NCBI RefSeq assembly: GCF_008630935.1
Contig: NZ_CP043908.1
Coordinates: forward strand, 992,001 to 1,056,000
DNA from: Thermodesulfobacterium sp. TA1
Lineage (GTDB): Bacteria; Desulfobacterota; Thermodesulfobacteria; Thermodesulfobacteriales; Thermodesulfobacteriaceae
Length of the DNA stretch: 64,000 nucleotides
Direction: 5' to 3'
The notes under the pieces were generated by a model that did no database searches, had not been told where the DNA came from, and worked only from the letters and a program-made list of their open reading frames with translations. Both the position numbers and the translations under genes were made by a program. Shown one piece after another: positions 30,452 to 38,015 of the stretch (its first letter is position 1; each line of letters begins with the position of its first letter).

Positions 30452-31042
30452 TTATACATGAAACTTAGAAAGGTATTCAAAGATGGTTTGATCATACCTA
30501 CTGGTTAAAGCAAAAACTTTTTTGGCAAGCTCAAACCTGGTTTCAAGGGTTGTATTGCCATAGGTTTTTATCTCTTGAAGAACCTTTTCATAGTCTTGAG
30601 GGTCTACCACCACCGTAACATAATGAAAGTTTTTAGCAGAAGCCCTAAGTAAAGTAGGTCCTCCTATATCGATGTTTTCTATAGCCTCCTTTAGGTCTCC
30701 TCCCTTCTCTACCACCTTTTCAAAGGCATAAAGGTTTACTATCACTAAGTCTATAGGTTTTATTTTAAGTTCTTCTATCGTTTTTATGTGTTCTGGGTCG
30801 TCTCTTTTAAAAAGGATGGCTCCATGTATATGGGGATGTAAGGTTTTTACCCTTCCTTCTAAAATCTCAGGAAAACCGGTTATTTCGCTAATCTCTACCA
30901 CCTTTACTCCGCCTTCTCTTAAAACCTTAGCCGTGCCACCGGTAGAGACGATTTCTATACCTAAACCTTCAAGCTCTTTGGCTAATTCTACTATTCCCCT
31001 TTTATCGGTTACACTGATTAAAGCCCGTTCTATTTTATTCAT
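30452..31042 (-). CDS. purH: IMP cyclohydrolase, stand-alone N-terminal PurH domain
   Basis: Normal PurH is about 520 residues with an IMP cyclohydrolase domain and an AICAR transformylase domain. This protein has only the first: 196 residues starting [21 protein letters not shown], through [30 protein letters not shown] and [16 protein letters not shown], and ending [12 protein letters not shown]. The stop is clean and aroD follows after three bases, with no trace of the transformylase. So the last purine step is encoded alone and formylation must come from another gene. The ATG lies 29 bases after ahbC. Confidence 0.92.
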
Positions 31043-31071: not shown

Positions 31072-32256
31072 TTAGGCTATACCTATTTCTTCATCGGTTA
31101 GATAGCAGGCTGGGTCAGGAGCCCACACATCTCCTGTAACCGCCTCTGCCCTTACTCTAAAATTTCCTCCGCACACCTCTAAAAACTTACAGACGGCACA
31201 TCTACCTTTAACATGCTTTTTCTTTTCTTTTAATTTAGCCATCAGAGGGTCTGAAAGATCTGTCCAAATCGTGCTAAACGGTCTTTTTCTCACATTTCCA
31301 AAGGAATAGTGTCTCCAAAACTGGTCTGCATGCACCTCTCCATCCCAAGAAATACAGCCTATACCTACCCCACTATTGTTACCTCCGTTCATCTTAAGAA
31401 GTTCATAAACTTCTTCTGCCCTTGGATTGCCCTCTCTTTTCATTCTAAGATAAAGATATGGACCATCTGCGTGGTTGTCTACCGTCAAAACCTCTACTTT
31501 ATGTCCTTTATCGTGTAATTCTTTGGTTCTGTCTATGATATAATCAACCCAATACCTGGTTTCTTTATGGTCCAAATCCATTTCTATTAAATTGCTACCT
31601 CTTCCTGCATAGACTAAATGATAAAAACATATCCTTGGAATAGCCAGTTCTTCAACCAAGTCAAACACCTTAGGGATTTCTTGGGCGTTAAGTTTGTTGA
31701 TGGTAAACCTTAGCCCTACTTTTATTCCTTCTTTTTTACATGTCTCTATAGCAGAGATCACTTTATCAAAACACCCCTTTACCCCTCTAAACTTATCATG
31801 CACTTCCCTCCAACCGTCAAGACTAATCCCTACATAGGAAAGTCCAATTGTTTTTAGTTCTTTAGCTAAAGCTTCATCTATCAAAACCCCGTTGGTAGAA
31901 AGCACTGCCCTCATCCCTAAATCTACGGCTTTTTTTATTAAGTCTAAAATATCTGGTCTTACCAAAGGTTCTCCTCCAGAAAACAAAACTACCGGTACCC
32001 CAAAATGAGCTAAATCTTCAAGTAATGCCATACCTTCGGTTGTAGTAAGTTCGTCAGGATGGGGGTTGTTGTCTGCTTTGGCATAACAATGTATACACCT
32101 TAGATTACAAGCCTTGGTGACATTCCATACCACTACTGGTTTTTTGTCTTCAGAAAACTGCAGAAGATGGGAGGGAAGTTTTTTTGAATGTCTACCATAC
32201 CTTAAAGGGTCGGACGCTTCTATGGTCCCACAATAAAGCTTGGAAATACCTATCAT
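31072..32256 (-). CDS. ahbC: Radical SAM/SPASM enzyme AhbC (12,18-didecarboxysiroheme deacetylase)
   Basis: AhbC removes two acetate side chains in the siroheme-dependent heme pathway of sulfate reducers and methanogens. The 394-residue protein begins [21 protein letters not shown], closely like AhbC as I recall it. It has the radical SAM cluster motif C50-x3-C54-x2-C57 (in CNLRCIHC), the GGEPLVR motif, and a SPASM-type C-terminal region with GIGCISWDG and [15 protein letters not shown]. NirJ and AhbD are close relatives; the N-terminus favours AhbC. No other ahb gene is in the window. It sits between the degenerate receiver and purH in the long minus run. Confidence 0.85.
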
Positions 32257-32267
32257 TTCTTAAACCT

Positions 32268-32624
32268 CTATTTTTTTATATACTTTAAAACTTTATTTAA
32301 AAATTCCTCTTCTTTAAAAGGATAAACTAAAATGTCATCACAACCACAATCTTTAGCTTTAGTCTCTTCTTCCTTTAACGGCACTTTACAAACCCCTAAT
32401 ATAGGGATGTCTTGAGTTTCTGGAGAGGATTTTAAAAGTAAGGTAGTAGCAAATCCGTCTAACAACGGGATGTCCTTTTCTAAAACTATCAACTTTGGTT
32501 TTTCTTTTTTAGACAACTTAAGAAGAGTTTCTCCGTCTTCTATCAGTTTGTATTTTAGTTTAAGCTTCTCTAAAACCTCTTTTAATCTATTAAATAAATC
32601 CTCAGAAAGGGCTAAGTATATCAT
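32268..32624 (-). CDS. Stand-alone degenerate receiver-like protein
   Basis: A 118-residue protein with the beta-alpha fold rhythm of a response-regulator receiver. The phosphoacceptor position holds Glu49 (LIVLEKDIPLLDG, where receivers have LLDxxMPxxDG), the conserved Lys before Pro is Tyr101 (VYPFKEEEF), and the Thr/Ser strand reads ILGVCK. It is therefore unlikely to be phosphorylated, and may act as a constitutive docking module. It is four bases after the ClpX-like ATPase gene and 11 bases before ahbC. No DNA-binding domain is present. Confidence 0.7.
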   Translation of the reverse strand: MIYLALSEDLFNRLKEVLEKLKLKYKLIEDGETLLKLSKKEKPKLIVLEKDIPLLDGFATTLLLKSSPETQDIPILGVCKVPLKEEETKAKDCGCDDILVYPFKEEEFLNKVLKYIKK

Positions 32625-32628
32625 ATTC

Positions 32629-34251
32629 CTAAATCATCTTATTTTTTAAGATTTCTTCGCAAAATTTTTCTGGATTTTTAAAAGCTTCTGGAGTTATAAC
32701 TACGTGGTTTATACCTAAAACATCTCTTAAATAAACGAGTTCATCTTTTAAACGAGACATTATCTTGTCACAAAGGCTAAAAACTCCAACCTCTTTTTTT
32801 ATAACTCTTTCGATAATAAGGTCTATAGCTTCTTCAGAAAATAAAATCCTTAATTTATACCTATTTTCAAAAAACTTTTCATAGTTCTTAATTTGCTGCC
32901 AAACATAAAAAAGCCTTTCCCAAACCTTTATAGGCTCTATAGCCCAACTTAAGTAAAAACTAAAAAGTAAATTTACCCTTTTTGGGGTTAAATCAAAAGA
33001 TTTATCAACCCAAAAATCATTCTTTGAATTTAAATAATCTTTAAACCGCCCTTCTTCTTCCAAAAGGGCAGTCTTAAAGTTAACCATCCAACGTTCGTTT
33101 TTAGGAGAGGATAACATAGCTTGAAGGATTCCCTCAGGGTCTTTTACCAACTCTTCGGTTACCCCTAAATATTTTAAACCTTTAGAGGATAACACCCTTT
33201 CATAAGGGATTAAAACCCTTTCTAAAACCATAGCCAGGGCCCTTGCTCCGGTGTTTTCTTGAGAGGCAAGCCGTGCAATTTCTTTCAGAGCTCCGTTAGT
33301 AAAAGCTAAGGTTATTCCATAGACATTAAAATCCTTTTTTTTATTTAAAACTATAGGGTTATTAGGATTAGCCAAGATTTCAAAAAGGTCTTCTTCAGAA
33401 AGAGGATCAAAAACCACGATTACCGGAAACCTTCCTACAAACTCTCTTTCAAAACCATAGTTTACTAAGTCTTCAGGCGAAACAAACTTTAGGTAATTAA
33501 TCTTTTGGTCTATTTTTTCCTCTAAGTCAGAAAGAAAACCCATTTTCTGTTTTCTTAATCTCTTTTTGATAATTTCCTCTAAACCTTGAAAAGCCCCGCT
33601 TGCTACAAAAAGCACATGCTTAGTGTTTAAAACTAACTTTTTTTTACGGTTTTTTTCAAAAAAATCTTTATGGTTAAAACTTTGCCCTACCTCTGGGGGC
33701 AATTTTATTTCTACGGTAGTTTCTTCTAAAGGTTTTAACAAGGCCCTTTGTACCCCTGTCCGAGAAACATCAGGTCCTATGTTTTCTCCGGTTGAGGCAA
33801 TTTTGTCTATCTCGTCTAAAAATATCATTCCATAATGAGCTTTCTCTAAGTCTCCTTCAGCCTCCCAATAAAGTTCTCTTATCAAGTCTTCGATATCTCC
33901 TCCTACATAACCAGTCTCACTAAACTTTGTAGCGTCTCCTTTTACAAAAGGCACCCCTATTTTTTTAGCTATCAGTTTCATCACATAGGTCTTACCAACT
34001 CCTGTAGGACCTATGATAAGAAGGTTGTTTTTGACAAAATCAAACTCCTCGTTTCTTTTTAAAACATAATGTTTAATCTTTTGAAAATGGGTGCAAATTT
34101 TGGTAGAAATAACAGCCTTAGCCTCTTTTTGTCCTACTACATAGTCATTTAAAAAACTTTCAAGTTCAAGGGGTTTAAGGTCAAACTCATAGATGGAAGA
34201 GAATCTCTCAGAAGATAATTTTTCCAATTTCAATTTAGAACTTTTAATCAT
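32629..34251 (-). CDS. ClpX-like AAA+ unfoldase with C-terminal extension
   Basis: A 540-residue AAA+ protein closest to ClpX/HslU. It lacks the ClpX N-terminal zinc domain. It has Walker A GPTGVGKT (81-88), pore loop GYVG (114-117), Walker B FLDEID (144-149), box VII EFVGRFPVIV (270-279) and sensor 2 NTGARALAMVLERVL. At the place of the ClpP-docking IGF loop is MGF (237-239), so partnership with ClpP is plausible. Residues from about 375 onward form an extra helical region of some 165 residues with no motif I recognise. It has a leaderless-type promoter (TATAGT seven bases before ATG) and is followed four bases later by a degenerate receiver. Confidence 0.8.
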   Translation of the reverse strand: MIKSSKLKLEKLSSERFSSIYEFDLKPLELESFLNDYVVGQKEAKAVISTKICTHFQKIKHYVLKRNEEFDFVKNNLLIIGPTGVGKTYVMKLIAKKIGVPFVKGDATKFSETGYVGGDIEDLIRELYWEAEGDLEKAHYGMIFLDEIDKIASTGENIGPDVSRTGVQRALLKPLEETTVEIKLPPEVGQSFNHKDFFEKNRKKKLVLNTKHVLFVASGAFQGLEEIIKKRLRKQKMGFLSDLEEKIDQKINYLKFVSPEDLVNYGFEREFVGRFPVIVVFDPLSEEDLFEILANPNNPIVLNKKKDFNVYGITLAFTNGALKEIARLASQENTGARALAMVLERVLIPYERVLSSKGLKYLGVTEELVKDPEGILQAMLSSPKNERWMVNFKTALLEEEGRFKDYLNSKNDFWVDKSFDLTPKRVNLLFSFYLSWAIEPIKVWERLFYVWQQIKNYEKFFENRYKLRILFSEEAIDLIIERVIKKEVGVFSLCDKIMSRLKDELVYLRDVLGINHVVITPEAFKNPEKFCEEILKNKMI

Positions 34252-36657: not shown

Positions 36658-37542
36658 TTAAATTTGGAAACGTTTTTGGCAAAAACTCTTTAAAACATCC
36701 TCAAGTTTTGGGTCTTTACAGGCGTAATGAAGGATAGTTTTAAAAAATCCCTCTCTATTTCCTGTATCAAATCTTATCCCTTTAGACAAATAAGCATAAA
36801 CCTCATGTCCCTCATCTACCATAAGTTGTATAGCGTCAGTCAGCTGGTACTCTCCGTTAACCTTAGGTATTCTCTTTAAATAATCAAAAATCACCGGGTC
36901 AAAAATATAGCGCCCTATGATAGCAAGGTTAGAAGGTGCCTCTTCAGGGGCAGGTTTTTCTACTACGTTTTTTATTCTTATAAGGTTTTCTTCTACTTTT
37001 TCCCCATCGATAATCCCATATCTTGAAATATGTTCCCAACTTACCTCTTCTACCGCTATAAGACTTACTCTTGAAACTTTAAGAGATAAACTTTGATAAA
37101 CCTCTAACATCTGCTTAAGACAAGGTGGGTCTGCGTCCACCAGGTCGTCTCCTAATAAAACAGCAAAAGGCTCTTTTCCTACAGCTTCCTCTGCCATCAA
37201 AATGGCATGTCCTAAACCCTCAGGGACTTTTTGTCTAACTTCTATAAGATATTTTATCTTTTCTTCTACCTCTTTTACCTTTTCTAAGAGGTCTGTTTTT
37301 CCTCTTTCTTTAAGAAAACTTCTTAAGTTTAGATCAATATCAAAATAATCTATGATTTTTCCCTTTCCTTGAGAAATGATAAAAATCAACGTATTAACCC
37401 CAGATTGAATGGCTTCATCTATTACGTATTCTACGGTGGGTCTTTCTATAACCGGTAAAAGCTCCTTAGGCACTACTTTAGTAATCGGAAGCATTCTTGT
37501 TCCAAGTCCTGCCACAGGAAGAACAGCTTTTCTTACCTTCAT
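36658..37542 (-). CDS. galU: UTP-glucose-1-phosphate uridylyltransferase
   Basis: Makes UDP-glucose, the substrate of Ugd. The 294-residue protein begins MKVRKAVLPVAGLGTRMLP, with the nucleotide loop GLGTRMLPITKVVPKELLP, then LLGDDLVD, VEKP and the C-terminal KGIRFDTGN that closes the active site. The ATG at 37542 overlaps the stop of the preceding gene (ATGA) and follows GGAGAGGTGG, so it is preferred to a GTG two codons earlier. It lies between an unknown gene and priA. Confidence 0.96.
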   Translation of the reverse strand: MKVRKAVLPVAGLGTRMLPITKVVPKELLPVIERPTVEYVIDEAIQSGVNTLIFIISQGKGKIIDYFDIDLNLRSFLKERGKTDLLEKVKEVEEKIKYLIEVRQKVPEGLGHAILMAEEAVGKEPFAVLLGDDLVDADPPCLKQMLEVYQSLSLKVSRVSLIAVEEVSWEHISRYGIIDGEKVEENLIRIKNVVEKPAPEEAPSNLAIIGRYIFDPVIFDYLKRIPKVNGEYQLTDAIQLMVDEGHEVYAYLSKGIRFDTGNREGFFKTILHYACKDPKLEDVLKSFCQKRFQI

Positions 37543-38015
37543 AACCACCTCTCCAAATTTTTTTCAAAAAGATAATTCTGAATTCTCTTGAAATAATTAT
37601 AAACCTCTTCCCAATAAGATAAGCTTTTATTATAGACTGTCTCAAATTCCTTTAAATGTTGGGGATTTAAAATTAAGTTAGCACTCCATAGGAAGGTTTT
37701 TTTAGGGTCTAAGGTCTCTGCCTCAGGACAAACATAAATCAGTTCAAGTTCTCTTCTTAATTCTATTGAGATTTTAAAATCCAAAAATTGCTTTAATTCT
37801 TTAGCCTCTTCTAACGAATTAACCCCTATCACCACGACTTTTAAAAGTTTGTTTTTTATCCAAAACACCAAATCTTCTTGATTTTTAGTCTCTCTTATTG
37901 TATAACCTTTATGTTTTTCAAACCATTCTGCTATAGGCTGAAAAGAAATTGGAAGTTTCCAAAAGAAAGCTACTATCGGCTTTTGTAAAAACAGATCTGA
38001 AGTCTCAACTACCAT
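37539..38015 (-). CDS. Unknown protein of 158 residues in the pilT-galU cluster
   Basis: I do not recognise it. It starts MVVETSDLFLQKPIVAFFWK and has alternating hydrophobic strands and helices (VVVIGVNSLEEAKELKQFL, LELIYVCPEAE) reminiscent of a receiver or Rossmann-like fold without the usual acidic residues. The C-terminal third is rich in aromatic and charged residues (YWEEVYNYFKRIQNYLFEKN). No signal peptide or membrane segment. It is nine bases after the second pilT-like gene and overlaps galU, so it is probably made with the twitching ATPases. Confidence 0.75.
   Translation of the reverse strand: MVVETSDLFLQKPIVAFFWKLPISFQPIAEWFEKHKGYTIRETKNQEDLVFWIKNKLLKVVVIGVNSLEEAKELKQFLDFKISIELRRELELIYVCPEAETLDPKKTFLWSANLILNPQHLKEFETVYNKSLSYWEEVYNYFKRIQNYLFEKNLERWL

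Follow-up and report, generated by a model that had tools for sequence, protein, structure and literature searches.

A ClpX paralogue beside tetrapyrrole-synthesis genes in bacteria and a pseudo-receiver that accompanies it in some lineages

In canonical ClpX, substrate choice is aided by a zinc domain and an RKH loop, and RssB, one of the receiver proteins tied to ClpX-type unfoldases, is phosphorylatable. A single-domain protein of this kind is CpdR of Caulobacter, which primes ClpXP; its docking site is the N-terminal part of ClpX, and phosphorylation switches its activity (PMC8973945). In mitochondria, ClpX activates ALA synthase (ALAS) by partial unfolding, and it has been proven biochemically that the general ClpX itself acts on this enzyme (PMC7077987). 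Pseudo-receivers are estimated to make up about 6% of bacterial receivers in a 2025 review which, in the sections considered here, calls their mechanisms a mystery and names no AAA+ partner for them (PMC12632262). ClpX touches mitochondrial heme synthesis, and it is largely an open question whether bacteria have dedicated unfoldases for cofactor pathways.

We analyzed a locus within a 64,000-nucleotide stretch (the window) of the Thermodesulfobacterium sp. TA1 genome, in which an AAA+ ATPase, a receiver and ahbC follow one another. The original prediction, made from the sequence of the window, centered on the ATPase-receiver pair and was aware of no description of it; likewise, we found no description of the pair in the open-access literature, and nothing relevant on a link between ClpX and AhbC. 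Like mitochondrial ClpX, the ATPase is an unfoldase of the ClpX type with a link to an enzyme of heme synthesis; however, it is a separate paralogue, and its link to AhbC and HemB is by gene order only.

The ATPase and its locus

The three genes are on the minus strand (Table 1), with the receiver 4 bp downstream of the ATPase and ahbC, a gene of siroheme-dependent heme synthesis, starting 11 bp after the receiver. The genome is complete (1.83 Mb), and AhbD is encoded in it as well (554.9 bits). The ATPase is not the genome's own ClpX: the canonical clpX (658 bits) sits at a separate locus, where it adjoins clpP. HslU is also encoded, which, with the ATPase, brings this group to three members.

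Table 1. Features of the locus (coordinates are positions in the window)
Feature	Residues	Coordinates	Strand	Support or remark
ClpX-paralogue AAA+ unfoldase without zinc domain	540 aa	32629..34251	-	
Walker A, GPTGVGKT	81-88	33988..34011	-	Kept in 89/91 paralogues
Expanded loop replacing the ClpX RKH loop	~179-207	33631..33717	-	Alignment of 15 orthologues and ClpX
MGF at the ClpP-docking IGF position	237-239	33535..33543	-	
AAA+ small domain, first copy	~299-382	33106..33357	-	Pfam ClpB_D2-small, 3.9e-7
C-terminal extension, putative degenerate second small domain	~440-540	32632..32934	-	
Single-domain pseudo-receiver (Glu49, Cys79, Tyr101)	118 aa	32268..32624	-	Pfam, AF2, residue tally, adjacency
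ahbC, 12,18-didecarboxysiroheme deacetylase (radical SAM)		31072..32256	-	TIGR04546, 717.4 bits (cut-off 650)

On sequence grounds, the ATPase is a ClpX paralogue. Its core aligns to ClpX over residues 24-375 with 34-38% identity in the AAA+ core, and its scores with the two NCBIfam ClpX models, 323.7 and 300.3 bits, fall short of the respective cut-offs (359 and 370.75). In a fold search with the AF2 model (pLDDT 88.7), ClpX was the top match (Z 32.2). The statement of the original prediction that the Walker, pore and sensor motifs are kept proved accurate: besides Walker A, we located the pore loop GYVG (114-117), Walker B MIFLDE (142-147), GR (273-274) and TGAR (334-337), and GYVG and TGAR are invariant among the paralogues. 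All elements of the canonical ClpX core (Walker A and B, the GYVG pore loop and the GAR sensor 2) are thus present. The MGF tripeptide was also correctly placed at the position of the IGF loop, and this position reads [ILMV]GF in 91/91 paralogues; across 78 distinct sequences, the entropy at its Gly and Phe is zero, in contrast to the variable flanking positions. From this tripeptide, the ATPase is predicted to dock ClpP.

Along with these likenesses to ClpX, there are differences in the parts outside of the motor, in phylogenetic placement (an own clade) and in gene neighbors. The zinc domain is absent, as had been claimed: the match to the ClpX core begins only at residue ~24, and an N-terminal C4 zinc-binding motif was found in 0/91 paralogues versus 35/35 canonical ClpX sequences. 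The RKH string is present in 35/35 canonical ClpX sequences versus 4/91 paralogues (a string count, with those four taken as matched), an expanded loop standing in its place, and there is a second small domain, for which the evidence is as follows.

The C-terminal extension was noticed in the original prediction; it is real and conserved among orthologues, and is best read as a duplicated, degenerate copy of the AAA+ small domain. Residues ~440-540 match the small domain of the ATPase itself (hhalign 97.6%, E 1.4e-11) and, more weakly, that of canonical ClpX (E 4.3e-6, probability 72%). In the AF2 model, the first copy consists of helices at 299-309, 319-331, 337-357, 366-370 and 372-381 and strands at 314-317 and 361-364, helices within residues 386-436 join it to the second copy, and the order of elements in the extension is similar to that of the small domain. 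This order and the profile matches are the basis for the duplicate-small-domain reading, and on these grounds we rejected a foreign domain. It should be noted that the fold search with the whole model was dominated by matches to the ClpX/HslU core and hardly probed residues 391-540. According to the original prediction, assignment of this part to a known domain with another role would count against the proposal; it does match a known domain, but a duplication does not imply another role. Such a duplication is an unusual layout in a ClpX-like ring.

Full-length orthologues occur throughout the order to which the source organism belongs and in many other families, and, within the order, nearly every member sampled has the ATPase-receiver pair; the observation is therefore not due to chance. 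In a quick maximum-likelihood tree, the orthologues of the phylum are separated as a clade from all sampled canonical ClpX sequences (SH-aLRT 99). The sister group consists of zinc-less, C-terminally extended ATPases, mostly from Verrucomicrobia and Planctomycetes. These relatives came from a scan of genome contigs, which returned mostly canonical ClpX and also supplied our control set. The C-terminal extension is shared by the sister ATPases L061-L069 (Verrucomicrobia, Planctomycetes and related groups, one labelled Bacteroidetes), and no tetrapyrrole genes were seen as neighbors of the PVC relatives examined.

Heme-synthesis genes next to the ATPase

Using 198 genomes spread over the phylum, with AhbC called by a TIGR04546 match at E 1e-120, we found the ATPase in 97 genomes, AhbC in 112 and both in 69. 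There are 28 genomes with the ATPase and no match to TIGR04546 at this threshold, and 43 genomes with AhbC and no ATPase. In 47 of the 69 genomes with both, the ATPase is followed on the same strand by ahbC as the next gene (20 families, gaps of 12-833 bp), a count that tolerates a receiver or a small ORF between the two. Downstream hemB was found in 9/97 genomes, four of these with a receiver in between; overall, the ATPase adjoins ahbC or hemB in 56/97 genomes of many families, and several loci have the order ATPase-ahbC-hemB-ahbD. The upstream gene (priA) is conserved only within the source order. As for co-occurrence of the ATPase and AhbC, the Fisher test (odds ratio 3.3, P 6e-5) is only indicative because the genomes are related and not independent; it is the adjacency in 20 families that carries weight.

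In 24/97 genomes, judging by coordinates, a DnaJ-like gene directly follows the ATPase, and the remaining 17/97 have other neighbors or a contig edge. The genomes with a DnaJ-like neighbor, together with those that have the ATPase and no AhbC, mean that neither AhbC nor tetrapyrrole enzymes as a whole can be the sole clients everywhere. Examples of the DnaJ-type neighborhood are G050, G059, G060, G087 and G148, and in L050 (5833-8573) the ends overlap. With respect to the AhbC proteins, several orthologues in G003-G006 and G009-G012, which belong to the same genus, score 598-642 bits, below the cut-off of 650, and the AhbC of L059 has a shorter N-terminal part.

By gene neighborhood, the partner kept with the ATPase is a tetrapyrrole enzyme, AhbC or HemB, neither of which appeared in the original prediction, where the ATPase was paired with the receiver. 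With the paralogue placed beside ahbC or hemB in more than 20 bacterial families, the question of dedicated unfoldases becomes directly testable. The motor and docking parts are intact, the parts that choose substrates in ClpX are gone and heme genes are adjacent, so action on heme-pathway enzymes is the reading that we favor; from gene order, the most likely clients would be AhbC and, in some lineages, HemB, and in the ATPase these bacteria may have an unfoldase that is dedicated to heme synthesis.

The pseudo-receiver

The receiver matches Pfam Response_reg at E 8.9e-10, and AF2 gives it a (beta-alpha)5 fold, with a pLDDT of 84.7 in the best model only. Compared to CheY, it has Glu49 at D57, Tyr101 at K109, Cys79 at T87 and Ala5/Leu6 at D12/D13, so that the described module, four bases from the ATPase, with Glu49, Tyr101 and no Thr/Ser switch, is indeed there. 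That it is a fixed module is borne out by 39 homologues, which have Glu (34), Arg (3), Ser (1) or Tyr (1) at the D57 position: the phosphoacceptor Asp was found in 0/39 and Lys at K109 in 0/39, whereas Cys occupies the position of the Thr switch in 37/39. An acidic residue is present at D12 in 3/39 and at D13 in 1/39.

Homologues scoring at least 126 bits were found in 11/198 genomes, all beside the ATPase (the next best match has 98.5 bits), and no clear member of the family was found away from it in the 198 genomes. In this sample, such homologues occur in six families, only directly downstream of the ATPase, and a seventh receiver-bearing family came from a search of near relatives. The receiver adjoins the ATPase in all three families searched of the source order, where ahbC follows, and in families f50, f57, f63 and f67, where the next gene is hemB. 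The receiver-bearing lineages group in the tree with the receiver-less family f31 (support 91), which fits a single gain followed by one loss; the receiver was probably added to the ATPase locus once, in the source order and the four other families. Conservation of the pair, for which the original prediction had proposed a search, thus extends over nearly the whole of the order as sampled and four more families, but most orthologues have no receiver. The latter keep ahbC or hemB nonetheless, and we rejected the pair as the core unit.

A fixed, non-phosphorylatable receiver that occurs only beside the ATPase fits an accessory or adaptor role, and it is plausible that the protein binds the ATPase as a lineage-specific accessory subunit, an adaptor or a gate. 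The analogy with RssB, offered in the original prediction, holds insofar as a receiver is tied to a ClpX-type unfoldase; otherwise it is loose, because both RssB and the nearer analogue, CpdR, can be phosphorylated, and the part of ClpX to which CpdR binds, the N-terminal one, is missing from the ATPase. CpdR is also a single-domain receiver, and the pseudo-receiver may work like it, yet it does not belong to the CpdR type, since its family never has the Asp or the Lys of the phosphorylation switch, and the N-terminal docking part is absent from the partner. The protein resembles the pseudo-receivers covered in the sections of the review cited above in that it keeps the receiver fold but not the residues needed for Asp phosphotransfer (PMC12632262). 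What sets the family apart is its compactness, the Cys at the Thr position and its confinement to the neighborhood of a single AAA+ gene, which provides a defined partner for tests of mechanism.

Proposed function and alternatives

Our main reading, to which we assign a probability of about 0.48, is that the ATPase is a ClpP-competent unfoldase of the ClpX type whose main clients are tetrapyrrole enzymes and which, in some lineages, has the pseudo-receiver as an accessory. It would form a ClpX-type hexamer that no longer serves the general function of ClpX and that, powered by ATP, threads the client through its GYVG pore and so unfolds it wholly or in part. The retained [ILMV]GF loops would then dock ClpP, and damaged or surplus enzyme would be degraded, as it is by ClpXP; in the alternative outcome, the client would be remodelled, as ALA synthase is by mitochondrial ClpX. 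The expanded loop and the second small domain, which take the place of the RKH loop and the zinc domain, may form a surface for clients or an adaptor, and the phosphorylation-dead receiver would act as an adaptor or gate outside of Asp phosphotransfer. Between the two outcomes, we lean somewhat toward ClpP-coupled turnover, due to the invariance of the docking loop. Counting against the main reading are the DnaJ-like neighbors, the genomes that have only one of the ATPase and AhbC (28 and 43, respectively) and the lack of tetrapyrrole genes beside the PVC relatives examined.

The DnaJ-like neighbors in 24 genomes, the 28 genomes with the ATPase and no AhbC, the PPIase or SurA-like genes that adjoin it in a few genomes and the unrelated contexts of the PVC relatives could all be expected of a general quality-control unfoldase or disaggregase with many clients, for which adjacency to ahbC, hemB or dnaJ would reflect co-expression or inherited order. 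We regard this explanation as possible, though doubtful: ahbC or hemB follows on the same strand in 56/97 genomes while the upstream neighbors change, and ClpX-ClpP and HslU are already available in the genome. The linkage to tetrapyrrole enzymes itself is shared by another explanation, in which the ATPase activates AhbC or HemB independently of ClpP, by partial unfolding for the loading or repair of a cofactor (Fe-S cluster or metal), the docking loop being vestigial or used for occasional clearance. Mitochondrial ClpX and ALAS provide a precedent (PMC7077987); however, Gly and Phe of the loop are unvaried among variable flanks, a sign that docking to ClpP continues to be used, and we consider such an activator unlikely. 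The position of the receiver gene between those for the ATPase and the enzyme could also mean that the pseudo-receiver serves AhbC, HemB or a signalling protein and owes its place in the operon to expression only. This is more unlikely still, given that the ATPase is the constant neighbor, whereas the next gene is ahbC in some lineages and hemB in others, and that clear family members were confined to ATPase loci in the 198 genomes.

A bolder version of the tetrapyrrole-enzyme reading is that bacteria making heme from siroheme evolved a heme-dedicated ClpX paralogue independently of mitochondria, and that the receiver became a subunit of the ATPase that sets client choice in some lineages, perhaps by redox or thiol sensing through the Cys at the Thr switch; we offer this as a speculation that is rather improbable as a whole.

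Other genes of the window are recorded here as well. The 196-aa protein encoded at 30452-31042 (minus strand), which lies in the ahbC-aro gene run and is conserved in the source order, resembles, by eye, a standalone IMP-cyclohydrolase half of PurH. A 158-aa protein without a Pfam match (37539-38015, minus strand) is flanked by pilT-like and UTP-glucose uridylyltransferase-like genes; it diverges fast (22-71% identity), its neighborhood is conserved in the source order, and its sequence suggests an alternating alpha/beta domain.
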